A model generated the notes under the pieces. It worked only from the letters and a program-made list of their open reading frames with translations, made no database searches and had not been told where the DNA came from. DNA of 64,000 nucleotides from Brevundimonas sp. MF30-B. GTDB taxonomy: Bacteria; Pseudomonadota; Alphaproteobacteria; Caulobacterales; Caulobacteraceae. Made by a program: the position numbers and the translations under genes. The stretch lies in NCBI RefSeq assembly GCF_004683885.1, contig NZ_CP038440.1:1894001-1958000 (forward strand), read 5' to 3'. Position 1 is the stretch's first letter. Each line of letters opens with the position of its first letter. Positions 3,064 to 8,213 of this stretch are shown here, piece by piece.

Positions 3064-3701
3064 AGCGGATGCTGAAGCCCGCTGACTGCCGGGGCCGAGG
3101 CGAACATCCAGCCCCGGAATATCTGACGCGCCTCCGAGCCCTGCGCGCGCGGCTGGACCGAGACGTCCAGATAGGCGACCGCGTCTTCCAGGGCCTCGTC
3201 AGGCCCAGACACCTCGCACGCGCGGGCGCTGAAGATCAGCGCGTTCTTGAAGCGCACCGGACGACCGCCAACCTCGACCTCGAACTTCATCGTCTCGGCC
3301 GTGACCTTGTCGATCGCCTGGACGATGGCCACGCGGCGACGTTGGCGCGGGCCCGGCGTCGCCGGTTGCTCGACGGGACGCGCCGCGGCGGGGGCCGCCT
3401 CTTCCTCGGGCCCCTCCTCGACCTCGGGCGCGGCCGCGATCTCGACGGGAGGCGCGGCGATAACGATGGGTGCGGCCGGAGCCGGCGCCGCCTCGGGCGC
3501 CGCCTCGACTGGCGCCCCGGCGGGCGGCGGCGGCGTTTGGTTCGGGTTCTGCAGGGGCGCGCGGCTGGTGTCGCGCAGCAGGTCGCCGACCGGGTCCTGG
3601 ACCGGGCGGGCGTCCTGGGGCTGATCCAACAGGGCGTTGGCCCCCGCAGCGCCCGCGGCCAGCAAGCCGGTCGCCGCGATCAGGGCGGCGGCGCGTCTCA
3701 T
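3030..3701 (-). CDS. DUF2155 domain-containing exported protein
   Basis: A 223-residue protein with an N-terminal signal-like segment ([20 protein letters not shown]), a long Pro/Ala/Glu-rich linker (about residues 40-115) and a C-terminal DUF2155 domain ([47 protein letters not shown]). The family's function is not known; the conserved part reads like a small secreted or periplasmic domain. Its ATG overlaps the stop of the upstream NDUFA12 gene by 4 nt (ATGA), so the two are translationally coupled, an arrangement I believe is common in alphaproteobacteria. The stop overlaps aat on the other strand. Confidence 0.88.
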
Positions 3702-4102
3702 TCGCCCGGCGTCCAGGCCTGATAGTCGCCCGTCGCGGCCGGGCGGCGCCCCTCCGCGGCGAGCGACCCGCTAGGCCGCCAGGCCATCGGCGTGCCGGTC
3801 AGGTTGGGCAGATAGTCCTTCTCCCATGCACGACGCGGCAGAGGCTCTTCGGTCGGCGGCAGGTCGAAGGTGTAATGCAGCCAGCCGTGCCAATCGGGCG
3901 ACACCTTCGACGCGTCGGCGTAGCCTTCGTAGATCACCCAGCGGCGCTTGCGGCCGTCATAGCTGACGGTGTCGCGCGACTCGTAATAGCGGTTGCCGAA
4001 CTCGTCGGTCCCCACCAGGGAGCCGCGCTTGGCGATCGTGAACAGAGTGCCGATCGTGGCGCCGTTCCACCAGGTGAAGATCTTGCTGAGCACGTCGTTC
4101 AA
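3698..4102 (-). CDS. NADH:ubiquinone oxidoreductase subunit, NDUFA12 type
   Basis: Accessory subunit of respiratory complex I, related to mitochondrial NDUFA12 (B17.2) and typical of alphaproteobacteria. Visible motifs are WWNGATIGTLFTIAKRG, LVGTDEFGNRYYE, RRWVIYEGYADASKVSPDWHGWLHY and the C-terminal WEKDYLPNLTGTP. Length 134 residues fits. It is first in a two-gene unit with the DUF2155 gene (4-nt overlap) and is encoded far from any other nuo gene in this window, as is usual. The 228 nt between it and the divergent gene at 4331 must hold promoters for both; I could not identify convincing -35/-10 boxes there, nor a B12 riboswitch. Confidence 0.95.
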   Translation of the reverse strand: MNDVLSKIFTWWNGATIGTLFTIAKRGSLVGTDEFGNRYYESRDTVSYDGRKRRWVIYEGYADASKVSPDWHGWLHYTFDLPPTEEPLPRRAWEKDYLPNLTGTPMAWRPSGSLAAEGRRPAATGDYQAWTPGE

Positions 4103-4330
4103 TCCACGCGAAATCCGCCGCGCGGCGGGGTCCGGCGACGCAGCCGATCATAGAAACCTCGGCGGCGTGCGTCCACCATCAAGGCGACGGCTGTCTCGCA
4201 AAAGCGGCGATCAGTCGACATCAACATCTTGGGGGTAACCCCGGTTCCCTCGTCTAAATGTATGGCGCGCGGTCGGCTCCGCTCCTAGGCTTGGCCGCGA
4301 TCTTCGCCCAGAGTTGCAGGGGAGCCGCAC

Positions 4331-6673
4331 ATGCCGCCGACCGCCCGCGCCGAGACGCCGCGCTCACGCTCGCCGTTGGAATCGCGCGAGATCGAACGCC
4401 CCAGCGGGGTCGCCCGCCTTCGCGTCCCGGCCGACTGGACCCAGGCGCGCATCGATGCCTGGCTGGACTGGGCCGAGGCGCACGAGCTGCCGACCGATCG
4501 GACCGACCGCCTGCTGGGCGGCGCTCCGGCTGCCTGGGCCGCGACACTGGCGAAGGGCGTCCAGGCCGACGCCCTGGTCGCCGCCGTCCGCGCCGGTTTG
4601 ATCGCGCCCGAGGCCCAGACTCAGCCAACGCCTGTCCTGCTGGACGTCTCACGTCCGGACGGAGCGGCGCGTTTCCGAATTCGCGCGGCCGAGATCGCCG
4701 CGGAAAGGCGCGCTCAGGGTGCGCTCGCCGCTCTACAGCGGGCGCTCGAAGCGGTGACGGATGCGGTCGACCGCTGCGAGGGCGCGCCCGGCGACTGCGC
4801 CGACCCGGCCCGCAATCCGGCCCTGATGCGCGCCGCACTCGCCGCTCGGCGTTGCGGCGCATCCGATCTGGACATCCGGCGCGCAGCCCTGGGCGAGCGC
4901 TCAGCTCTGATTTCGCCCGTGGCGCCTCGCGCGCCGATCGTCGTGCTCGCGGCCGATCTAGATGAGGCGACCTCGGCCGCCCTGCCCGCGCTCCTGCTCG
5001 ACAGCGGCGCGGTGCTGACGTCGGACACGGCGATCGCCCAGGCCCTGGCCAACCCCGCTCAAGGCGCGGTCGCCGTCGCCCTGCCCCTTCTGGCAAGCTT
5101 GTCGGCCCCGGACACGGCGGCGCGGCTGAGCGACCTTGCCCGCCACGCAGGCGGATCGACCCTGGCGCTTTACGGCCTTGCCGATTGGGCCCTGGCTCAG
5201 CCCGAGCCCGCCGCCGAGGCGGCCCAGGCTCTGGGCGAAGCGCTGAAGGCCGACGGCATAGCCGCCGCGCCGGGCCAGGATGCAGAGACCGCCCTGCGCC
5301 TCGGCTTGGCGGCCTTCAGCCTGCGCGACGCGTTTCAGACCGCCGACGACGAGATCGTGTGGCGCCTGCGGCCTTCCGTAGCCCGCGCCCTCAACCATAC
5401 CGGCGCCGATCTAGAGGCGGCGGAGCGTCATCTGTTCGGGCGGCGCACCCTGGCAGGCGCCCCCGGCGTAGATCACGATGCGCTGCGCACCTGCGGGTTC
5501 ACCGACCTGGAGCTGTCGGCCGTCGAGACGGCCCTGGCCGCTGTCGACCAGCTCGAGGACGCCTTCGCCCCGCCCGTGCTGGACCAGGGGTTCATCCGCG
5601 ATGTGCTGGGCCTTGATCCCGACCAGGGCCCCATCCTGCCGCGCCTGAATCTGACGCCTGACTCGTTGAACGAGGCCCGCGCCTATGTCTTCGGTCACGC
5701 CGACCTGTCCGCCTGGACAGACGCTCCCGAGGCGCTCGCCGGCCCGCTGACATCTCCGGCGGCCTGGACCAGGACGCTGGATCTCGCCTTGGCGCGCGGC
5801 CTCGGCGCGGTTCAACCGACCGAAATCGTTCTGAACTGGAACGACGGCCTTGATGCGGCCGCCGAGGCGCTAACCACCGCCCTTGAACAGGGTCAGGTGG
5901 TGCTCACCCTGTCTCGCGCCGCGCCTCCGTCGAACTGGCGTCTGGAGCTGGTCGAGCCCGCACCGACTCGCCCCGAAGCGGCCGCCCCGCCGCCCGAGCC
6001 CGAAGTCATCGAACGCGTGGTCGAGCGCGAACGCGCCCGCCGCAAACTGCCCGACCGCCGCAAGGGCTACATCCAGAAGGCGGCCGTCGGCGGCCACAAG
6101 GTCTATCTGCACACCGGGGAGTACGAGGAAGGCGAGCTCGGCGAGATCTTCATCGACATGCACAAGGAGGGCGCCGCCTTCCGCAGCCTGATGAACAACT
6201 TCGCCATCGCCATCTCCATCGGCCTGCAATACGGCGTGCCGCTGGACGAGTTTGTCGACGCGTTTGTCTTCACCCGGTTCGAGCCGGCGGGGCGCGTCAC
6301 CGGCAACGATTCGATCGGCTCGGCCACCTCGATCCTGGACTACATCTTCCGCGAGCTTGGCGTGTCCTATCTGGGCCGGTCCGAGTTGGCCAACGCCGAC
6401 GCGGATCCGCTGGACGCCGACGGCCTGGGGCAAGGCAAGGCCGAGGAACTGGTGCCGGCCGCCCGCTTCATCTCCAAGGGATTCGCCCGCGGCGCCGCAC
6501 CCGACAATCTGGTCGTCTTGCCCTTCGGACGGCGCGACGAAACGGCCGAGACGCCGGCCCCCGTCGTGGACGCCGTGGCCTGTCCGCAATGCGGCGACTT
6601 CGCCCTGCAGCAGCGCGGCGGCGGGTGGGAGTGCGACGCCTGCGGCGCGGCGCCCCGGCTTCAAGGGCTGTAG
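4331..6673 (+). CDS. NrdJ-derived TSCPD-domain protein, probable pseudoenzyme of class II ribonucleotide reductase
   Basis: A 780-residue protein. The C-terminal part (about residues 576-683) closely matches the TSCPD domain at the end of adenosylcobalamin-dependent ribonucleotide reductases ([70 protein letters not shown]), followed by a CxxC...CxxC tail (CPQC, CDAC, residues about 750-773). The rest is only faintly NrdJ-like but seems collinear: an N-terminal SREIERPSG-x-VPADW stretch, a [17 protein letters not shown] stretch near residue 150, and [21 protein letters not shown] near 370. The catalytic motifs of NrdJ (NPCSE loop, the finger loop, the PHACF region) are not visible, and it is far shorter than the roughly 1200 residues of alphaproteobacterial NrdJ. 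Good ribosome site (AGGGGAG). Function unknown; a regulatory or partner role for the true NrdJ is inference. Confidence 0.85.
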
Positions 6674-6723: not shown

Positions 6724-7218
6724 ATGAAGACCCTCGCCGCCGCGCTGACCCTCGCCGCCACCGTAGTGTCGGCCGCCGCCCCCGCCCTGGCCCAGAGCGC
6801 GGGCCAGATCGCCCGCGTCCGAGGCGGCGCCGCTTGCGCCGGCTGCAACCTTTTCCAGGGAGACTTTTCAGGCCTGGAGGCGCGCGGGATCAATCTGGCT
6901 GGCGCCCGCCTGCGCCAGGCCGATATCTCCCTGTCTGTGCTCAGCAACGCGCGCCTGTCCAACACCGACATGCGCGACATCGAGGCCTATGGCGCGGTCC
7001 TGACCGGCGCATCCCTGTCGGGCGCGGACCTGACCAACGCCAGCCTGGTCGGCGCCTATCTGAATGGGGCCAATCTGGCGGGCGCTCGGCTGTCGGGCGC
7101 CAATCTGTCGGGCGCCCAACTGGGATCTGCGCGCGGTCTCACCCAAGGCCAGCTGAGCCAGGCCTGTGGCGACGAAGCGACCGTGTTGCCGCGGGGAATG
7201 CGCATTCCGGCCTGTTGA
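6724..7218 (+). CDS. Exported pentapeptide-repeat protein
   Basis: A 164-residue protein with a clear signal peptide (cleavage likely after APALAQS, about residue 23), then a paired-cysteine segment GGAACAGCNLFQGDF and about twelve pentapeptide repeats of the A(D/N)LxG type forming a right-handed quadrilateral helix. It ends with ARGLTQGQLSQACGD and a final cysteine (RIPAC). The first and last cysteines probably pair in the periplasm. GGAG ribosome site 8 nt upstream. A longer paralogue follows 66 nt downstream with the same start, cysteine and end motifs, so this is a tandem duplication. Function unknown. Confidence 0.85.
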   Translation: MKTLAAALTLAATVVSAAAPALAQSAGQIARVRGGAACAGCNLFQGDFSGLEARGINLAGARLRQADISLSVLSNARLSNTDMRDIEAYGAVLTGASLSGADLTNASLVGAYLNGANLAGARLSGANLSGAQLGSARGLTQGQLSQACGDEATVLPRGMRIPAC

Positions 7219-7283
7219 GCGCCGCTGACCTTACCGCGATTTAAGTAGGTTTTCCGGGGCGTTGGTCGCACACCAGTATCGTG

Positions 7284-8213
7284 ATGAAGACCCAACCGTC
7301 CCCCATCCGTCGCCTCTCCCCCGCCTCGGCGTTCGCCCTGGCGCTCGCGGGCGCCCTTTCGCTGACGGCAGCCGGGCCAGCCTTGGGCGGCGAAATGCGG
7401 ATCGTGATCCAGGATCAATCGGTGGCGCGGATGGTGTCGCTGGGCGGCTCCTGCACCGCCTGCGAGCTGTCGGGCCGCAATCTGTCGGGCGCCACCTTCA
7501 CCGGTGCCTCCTTCCTGAATGCGACCCTGGTTGGCGCCAATCTGCGCGGCGCGGAACTGATGGGCTCCAACTTCTCCAGCAGTGACTTCACGCGCGCCGA
7601 CCTGCGCGGCGTGTCGATGACCGGGGCCAACTTCTCGGACGCCGACTTCACCAACGCCAATCTGTCAGGCGTGGAAGCTCAGGGATCGCGCTTCGTGCGC
7701 GCCCGGATGGGCAATGCCAATCTGTCGGGATCCGAGTTGATGGGGGCGAACTTCAACGGGGCGGAGCTGAACAACGCCAATCTGCGAGGTTCTGAACTGA
7801 TGGGGGCGACGCTCGCCAATGTTCGGGCCGCGCGGGCCGACCTTTCCCAATCCGAGATCAACGCCGCCAATCTATCGAACGGCGACTTCACCAGCGTCAG
7901 CTTCCGGGGGTCGGAACTGAACAGCGCGCGCCTGACCGGCGGCACCTTCACCCGGGCGGACTTCACCGGCGCCCAGATGAACCGCACCGATATCCGGGGC
8001 ACGGATCTGACACGCGCCCGAGGACTGACCCAAGACCAGATCGGTCGGGCGTGCGGGGATCAGACCACTCGCCTGCCTGGCGGCCTGACCGTGCGCGCCT
8101 GCAGCGGCGCCAGTGTTCGAATCATCCGCGCAACGCCGCCCCCGCCTCCTGCGCCGCCGGCGCCGCCGGCGCCGCCTCGTGTACGACGCTTCGCGTTGGC
8201 GGATGGCCATTGA
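7284..8213 (+). CDS. Exported pentapeptide-repeat protein with Pro-rich tail
   Basis: A 309-residue paralogue of the preceding gene: signal peptide (about residues 1-35), the same early cysteine pair (GGSCTACELSG), then about 35 pentapeptide repeats, including the recurrent SELMGANFNGAELNNANLRG-like unit, and the same C-terminal block ARGLTQDQIGRACGD...TVRAC. Unlike its neighbour it continues with a short Pro/Ala tail (PPPPAPPAPPAPP). The track allows GTG 7281 or ATG 7284; neither has an obvious Shine-Dalgarno. The end overlaps the start of the Hsp15 gene by 11 nt. Likely periplasmic or surface protein; role unknown. Confidence 0.85.
   Translation: MKTQPSPIRRLSPASAFALALAGALSLTAAGPALGGEMRIVIQDQSVARMVSLGGSCTACELSGRNLSGATFTGASFLNATLVGANLRGAELMGSNFSSSDFTRADLRGVSMTGANFSDADFTNANLSGVEAQGSRFVRARMGNANLSGSELMGANFNGAELNNANLRGSELMGATLANVRAARADLSQSEINAANLSNGDFTSVSFRGSELNSARLTGGTFTRADFTGAQMNRTDIRGTDLTRARGLTQDQIGRACGDQTTRLPGGLTVRACSGASVRIIRATPPPPPAPPAPPAPPRVRRFALADGH

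Follow-up and report, generated by a model that had tools for sequence, protein, structure and literature searches.

The window analysed here is the whole 64,000-nucleotide stretch of contig NZ_CP038440.1 (positions 1,894,001 to 1,958,000) of Brevundimonas sp. MF30-B, a strain with a complete genome of 2.8 Mb. It carries a gene whose product of 780 amino acids (aa) is colinear with NrdJ, the B12-dependent (class II) ribonucleotide reductase (RNR) of Alphaproteobacteria (~1,230 aa), and about 450 aa shorter (Table 1). When the protein was compared with NCBIfam, NF005736 (alphaproteobacterial NrdJ, 1,222 positions) matched in three stretches (E-value 1.9e-91) but scored 307 bits, far below its cut-off of 1,737. 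The sole Pfam match was TSCPD (PF12637) at residues 586-676 (E-value 1.5e-9; 38.4 bits against a gathering threshold of 22.8), and the barrel family PF02867 gave no match to this protein. A preliminary description, made from the sequence alone, had seen here a full-length but worn-down class II RNR whose C-terminus is under selection. The NF005736 match, the RNR-like predicted fold and the ratio of non-synonymous to synonymous substitution rates (dN/dS) in TSCPD agree with that reading.

Table 1 Features of the barrel-less NrdJ gene and its surroundings (positions in the window)
Feature	Positions	Strand	Residues	Basis
NrdJ ortholog without barrel, 780 aa, from ATG to and including the stop codon	4331..6673	+		ORF, NF005736 match, alignment with intact NrdJ
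Remnant of class II N-terminal domain	4367..4660	+	13-110	alignment; dN/dS about 0.1-0.4
First insert, YebC N-terminal-domain-like; also in intact alphaproteobacterial NrdJ	4676..4894	+	116-188	structure and profile
Catalytic barrel remnant, no NPCSE	4901..5380	+	191-350	alignment; dN/dS about 0.2-0.4
Second (mid) insert, retained	5381..5710	+	351-460	alignment; dN/dS 0.08-0.25
Last barrel segment remnant; FDCAN...RDGSK of intact NrdJ lost	5711..5935	+	461-535	alignment
TSCPD domain, near-invariant, fourfold-degenerate sites also slowed	6026..6400	+	566-690	Pfam, alignment, dN/dS
16-residue motif common to intact and decayed forms	6467..6514	+	713-728	alignment
Zinc ribbon C751xxC754...C768xxC771, without the redox pair of intact NrdJ	6581..6643	+	751-771	alignment; cysteine roles from PMC5704485
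Shine-Dalgarno-like AGGGGAG, six bases before ATG	4318..4324	+		sequence
NDUFA12 gene, conserved upstream neighbour	3701..4102	-		locus comparison
Pentapeptide-repeat protein, conserved downstream neighbour	6724..7218	+		locus comparison
Second pentapeptide-repeat protein	7281..8213	+		locus comparison

Comparison with intact NrdJ

Coverage and identity of each segment refer to a single intact same-order NrdJ (L076); the alignment also contained five more intact NrdJs and 22 decayed relatives. TSCPD is fully covered at 82 % identity, and the first insert (100 % coverage, 30 % identity) and the mid insert (94 %, 33 %) are retained as well. The values fall to 69 % coverage and 19 % identity for the N-terminal domain and to 21 % and 25 %, 44 % and 12 %, and 84 % and 10 % for barrel segments 1, 2 and 3, respectively. 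The thiyl-radical motif NPCSE is missing from the 780-aa protein when aligned with the intact same-order NrdJs, and barrel segments are shortened or missing. By sequence the catalytic barrel is unrecognisable and its active site is gone. The NrdJ-like phrases listed in the preliminary description do occur in the order of the intact same-order proteins, the 14-residue phrase lying in the N-terminal domain. The other two lie outside the barrel proper, in inserts of the alphaproteobacterial enzyme: the 15-residue phrase in the insert within the barrel and the 20-residue phrase in the second insert.

The predicted structure of residues 13-535 (predicted local distance difference test, pLDDT, mostly 80-95) still has an RNR-like fold. 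A Foldseek comparison of this model, a check that had been proposed, returned an RNR as the best match (7b9p, the B12 RNR of Rhodobacter sphaeroides; E-value 1.8e-8), and superposition on T. maritima NrdJ gave a Z of 11.0 and a root-mean-square deviation (rmsd) of 5.8 over 325 residues. Because the remnant is RNR-like in predicted fold, the barrel has shrunk and lost its chemistry and was not replaced.

In the predicted structure, residues 116-188 superpose on 4f3q, a YebC-family protein of Coxiella, with a Z of 8.0 and an rmsd of 1.7 across 67 residues. A hidden Markov model of the first insert, built from 37 intact NrdJs, matched the YebC of this genome (E-value 6e-5) among about 6,500 other open reading frames (ORFs), and it also matched 74 of 98 decayed proteins. 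In intact NrdJ, PF20772 reached an E-value of 0.0016, below its cut-off, and NCBIfam hints at YebC, again below cut-off; intact NrdJ scores 19.3 bits where the curated YebC cut-off is 36. The protein was not assigned to the YebC family, as only the first YebC domain was matched and the other YebC domains were undetected.

For the TSCPD model alone (mean pLDDT 70), Foldseek gave nothing below an E-value of 0.28. The model superposes weakly on the IscU/SufU/SufE/CsdE fold (VIA-align, Z 3-4.5), a likeness that was not used, and the TSCPD of the 780-aa protein is without conserved cysteines. Ribosomal zinc-ribbon proteins gave weak superpositions with the zinc ribbon (Z 3.1-3.7).

Cysteines of the C-terminal tail

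Most class II RNRs carry a cysteine-rich domain of 150-220 aa, in which four cysteines are proposed to be zinc ligands and two to be an electron shuttle (Loderer et al., PMC5704485). The redox pair is C933/C945 in S. nassauensis NrdJ; in this actinobacterial full-length enzyme the domain promotes higher oligomers stimulated by dATP/dGTP, effector affinity drops without it, and the existence of another nucleotide site is suspected (PMC5704485). Class II RNRs can also be split into NrdJa and NrdJb, of which NrdJb carries the cysteine-rich module (PMC5704485).

The same six tail cysteines are found in intact alphaproteobacterial NrdJs. The 780-aa protein keeps only the four zinc-ligand positions, and as the redox pair is absent it cannot pass electrons in the way NrdJ does. 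Electron delivery through the CxxC pairs, suggested in the preliminary description, was rejected for this reason; both of the kept pairs are the proposed zinc ligands. Across all loci read, six tail cysteines were present in 49 of 49 readable NPCSE-positive genes. Among 97 NPCSE-negative reading frames, 81 keep four cysteines and 15 are without the ribbon. The remaining one (L142) has six and proved to be an intact gene with a frameshift, its NPCSE lying in a different frame. On these alignments the electron-shuttle pair is lost along with the barrel, and the zinc ligands are usually kept. Genus g58 and some other genera of Caulobacteraceae (L184, L185, L194, L195) are also without the zinc ribbon, their C-terminus consisting of TSCPD and an ISKGFARG motif.

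Selection on the gene

When pairs of Brevundimonas genomes were compared, dN/dS was mostly 0.01-0.07 in TSCPD, mostly 0.04-0.26 in the inserts and about 0.1-0.45 in the other parts. By these values purifying selection acts on all segments, to an extreme degree on TSCPD, and the whole protein is maintained. The preliminary description had the gene keeping only its C-terminal domain: the retained C-terminus was borne out, and the word "only" was not, since the two inserts and the RNR-like fold are also kept under purifying selection. Fourfold-degenerate differences amount to 0.29-0.38 in residues 571-690 (positions 6041-6400) against about 0.46-0.60 elsewhere in the gene. Residues 571-690 have more C-ending codons, and the slowed fourfold sites may reflect selection for accurate translation or the presence of an overlapping element.

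Locus and ribonucleotide reductase complement

Each genome has one copy of the TSCPD gene, except where a contig end or a gap divides the match. The gene order in decayed lineages is aroQ-accB-accC-aat-DUF2155-NDUFA12-gene-pentapeptide repeats, and the intact nrdJ of sister lineages has flanking genes in common with this locus. The single copy and the common locus argue that the gene is the nrdJ ortholog by descent at its ancestral locus and not a duplicate. The proposal of a duplicated, decaying nrdJ was therefore dropped; in this genome the gene gave the single match, and the only RNR barrel gene is NrdA. The earlier statement that the window holds no functional nrdJ can be extended to the whole genome: PF02867 matches just one 687-aa NrdA-type gene, and no class II RNR was found elsewhere. 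NrdA and NrdB are both present here, and one or both of them in all barrel-less genomes tested.

An extra, different PF02867 gene besides NrdA occurs in several Brevundimonas and other members of the order (L031-L042; e.g. G018, G021, G032, G010). These frames of about 580-1,000 aa (mostly 740-850) are patchily distributed, with or without the barrel-less protein, and were probably acquired.

Distribution of barrel-less forms

The TSCPD-bearing gene is present in 237 of 249 Caulobacterales genomes. In Caulobacteraceae a match was found in 107 of 119 genomes; the survey for a separate intact nrdJ, which had been advised earlier, turned up no intact copy among these 107. The only Caulobacteraceae frame longer than 1,100 aa (L189 in G292, 1341 aa) is also without NPCSE, and the motif is in no Caulobacteraceae, Hyphomonas, Henriciella or Maricaulis copy read. 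L189 owes its apparently full length to a long open frame upstream of a decayed copy, a warning for calls based on length. Barrel-less members were found in Brevundimonas, Caulobacter, Phenylobacterium, Maricaulis, Marinicauda, Hyphomonas and Henriciella, and intact NrdJ in Parvularcula, Hellea and Robiginitomaculum.

Elsewhere in the class, almost all copies measure about 1,200-1,300 aa. The SAR11-type family f102 has TSCPD proteins of 273-294 aa in 27 of 28 genomes, and its sister family f137 has ORFs of ~1,200 aa, with NPCSE and six cysteines in both copies read. The order of f102 and f137 is probably SAR11, because one f137 NrdJ is 97.9 % identical to a Pelagibacteraceae NrdJ. Family f13 has a match in 27 of 32 genomes (mostly 270-301 aa, with four cysteines in the copies read), family f31 in 57 of 60 (mostly forms of 500-700 aa), and G452 of family f104 has a 667-aa form. 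The copies of G361 (f13) and G450 (SAR11-type) occupy the ancestral locus too, preceded by accB-accC, DUF2155 and NDUFA12. In G361, G450 and G379 no separate intact NrdJ was found, the sole barrel gene being NrdA. The f13 forms are without the YebC-like insert, and the SAR11-type forms are without the N-terminal region and the ribbon; as the g58 Caulobacteraceae also lack the ribbon, the minimal common core is TSCPD itself.

When parsimony was applied to a tree of the TSCPD region, a minimum of four changes between intact and decayed states was required. Within Caulobacterales, one loss suffices once the long-branch rows are left out, on an unsupported branch. By the parsimony count made here, the catalytic core has been lost in place at least four separate times, with the tail domain retained on each occasion. 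Outside Caulobacterales the loss is found in the SAR11-type lineage and in at least two others, with proteins as short as ~280 aa. The barrel-less form is kept in streamlined genomes of 1.0-1.5 Mb, and this persistence of the orphan domain in SAR11-type genomes suggests that its role is probably basic.

No NrdB was found in G532 (79 % complete), the one f137 genome in which it was sought, and the f102 genomes tested have NrdB together with the TSCPD-only protein. A swap of NrdJ and NrdAB between SAR11 families (L206 and L225 belong to f137) is possible.

Proposed function and alternatives

We consider it probable that the TSCPD module of alphaproteobacterial NrdJ has a second function independent of catalysis. 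The sequences show that the active site was lost in place. In the order of events that we infer, the vertically inherited Caulobacterales nrdJ would have lost its B12-dependent reductase activity at its own locus in a cell with class I NrdAB to provide deoxyribonucleoside triphosphates (dNTPs). The protein would survive through its C-terminal module, TSCPD with or without the zinc ribbon, which would need neither catalysis nor electron transfer. Since independent barrel losses repeatedly kept TSCPD, the second function presumably existed in the full-length enzyme before the barrel was lost. The module may be a small binding and oligomerising unit which, once free of the reductase, would act on some other housekeeping partner, perhaps in the control of dNTPs. 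What is left of the RNR-like N-terminal part would be a scaffold that the protein can do without, because SAR11-type forms have dropped it. Speculatively, the role could be that of a dNTP-responsive oligomerising module on another partner (possibly NrdAB) or that of an RNA or protein adaptor. Seen more broadly, it is rather likely that TSCPD is a moonlighting housekeeping module of basic cell biology that came apart from the reductase on several occasions, in Caulobacter and the SAR11-type lineage among others, and has been mistaken for an active B12-dependent reductase.

Several points weigh against a second function. It is deduced from sequence comparison; TSCPD was modelled with moderate confidence, and its match to a known fold is the weak one given above. 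The oligomerisation stimulated by dATP/dGTP was measured in an actinobacterial full-length NrdJ (PMC5704485). Moreover, 12 of 249 Caulobacterales genomes, near-complete Brevundimonas genomes among them, do not have the gene, so that the function is not universally required.

Among the alternatives, the module might sense dATP/dGTP and bind or modulate NrdAB or dNTP metabolism as a class I RNR regulator. This is conceivable and we rate it as doubtful. The presence of NrdA or NrdB in all barrel-less genomes tested would fit, as would the oligomerisation driven by the domain and the suspected nucleotide site in S. nassauensis NrdJ (PMC5704485). However, NrdAB also occurs in relatives whose NrdJ is intact and in others that have no TSCPD protein at all (G004, G051), so that it shows no specific co-occurrence with the barrel-less protein, and a nucleotide-binding motif was not demonstrated in the module. 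Somewhat less likely still is an RNA- or ribosome-associated factor, in which the YebC-like insert, the basic 14-residue start of TSCPD and the zinc ribbon would act on RNA or translation. The insert is backed by structure and profile, YebC binds 23S rRNA and aids translation of proline-rich stretches (PMC12234827), and the ribbon has its weak ribosomal superpositions. Against this, SAR11-type and f13 forms do without the insert, SAR11-type and g58 forms do without the ribbon, only the first YebC domain was matched, and zinc ribbons are common.

The remaining readings are far less probable. An electron donor or partner of an active NrdJ would have a model in NrdJb of the split NrdJa and NrdJb, which carries this module (PMC5704485), but we think it very unlikely, unless this genome has a class II RNR that went unrecognised: the genome has no NrdJ, which also disposes of the partner or decoy of the real NrdJ proposed earlier, and none of the barrel-less copies read with an intact frame has the redox pair. 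We give as little credence to a pseudogene or expendable remnant being lost. The barrel is down to 10-25 % identity and the gene is absent from about 5 % of Caulobacterales, but the frame is open in nearly all of hundreds of genomes, the form is kept in the streamlined genomes, and dN/dS well below 1 in every segment contradicts a pseudogene. A still active, highly divergent B12-dependent RNR is the least credible, since NPCSE is absent, barrel segments are shortened or missing and the redox cysteines are lost, despite the RNR-like overall predicted fold and the literature annotation of Caulobacter CCNA_01966.

Relation to known systems

The closest known system is alphaproteobacterial NrdJ itself (NF005736 / PRK07562; partial structure 7b9p, whose 925-residue construct ends short of TSCPD), which has the same locus, segment order, both inserts and the closely similar TSCPD; the 780-aa protein differs from it in the eroded barrel, the missing NPCSE and redox pair, and the length. 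Its retained tail of TSCPD and zinc ribbon corresponds to the cysteine-rich domain and to NrdJb, which serve a catalytic NrdJ (PMC5704485), whereas this genome is without catalytic NrdJ(a) and the shuttle pair is lost. Residues 116-188 are like the N-terminal domain of YebC / TACO1 (PF20772), below the Pfam cut-off. The resemblance to IscU/SufU/SufE/CsdE is limited to the weak superposition.

No description of a barrel-less NrdJ was found in the open literature, where the term TSCPD is rare and, where used, stands in neither title nor abstract. The cysteine-rich domain and NrdJb are so far known only as parts of active RNRs, and the orphaned accessory domain, or pseudoenzyme form, of class II RNR appears to be new. 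A textbook enzyme has here lost its catalytic core repeatedly in situ with one domain almost frozen, and the retention of TSCPD would imply that the intact enzyme had a second job in Alphaproteobacteria all along. Caulobacter CCNA_01966 is listed as the B12-dependent reductase NrdJ (PMC6538847, PMC5869019), and these accounts of B12 use in Caulobacter crescentus would need correcting. Essentiality data for CCNA_01966 were not found in the open papers searched.

Surroundings of the gene

A scan for sigma-70-type promoters gave no plus-strand sites, and Rfam at gathering thresholds found no B12 riboswitch in the window or in six loci of 14-15 kb from members of the order. In Caulobacter NA1000 the YjbI/PerA pentapeptide protein is CCNA_01968 and the "NrdJ" is CCNA_01966, the same arrangement two locus tags apart. 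A pentapeptide gene also lies 3' of intact nrdJ in several relatives, and the two pentapeptide genes 3' of the remnant resemble the Caulobacter YjbI/PerA locus.
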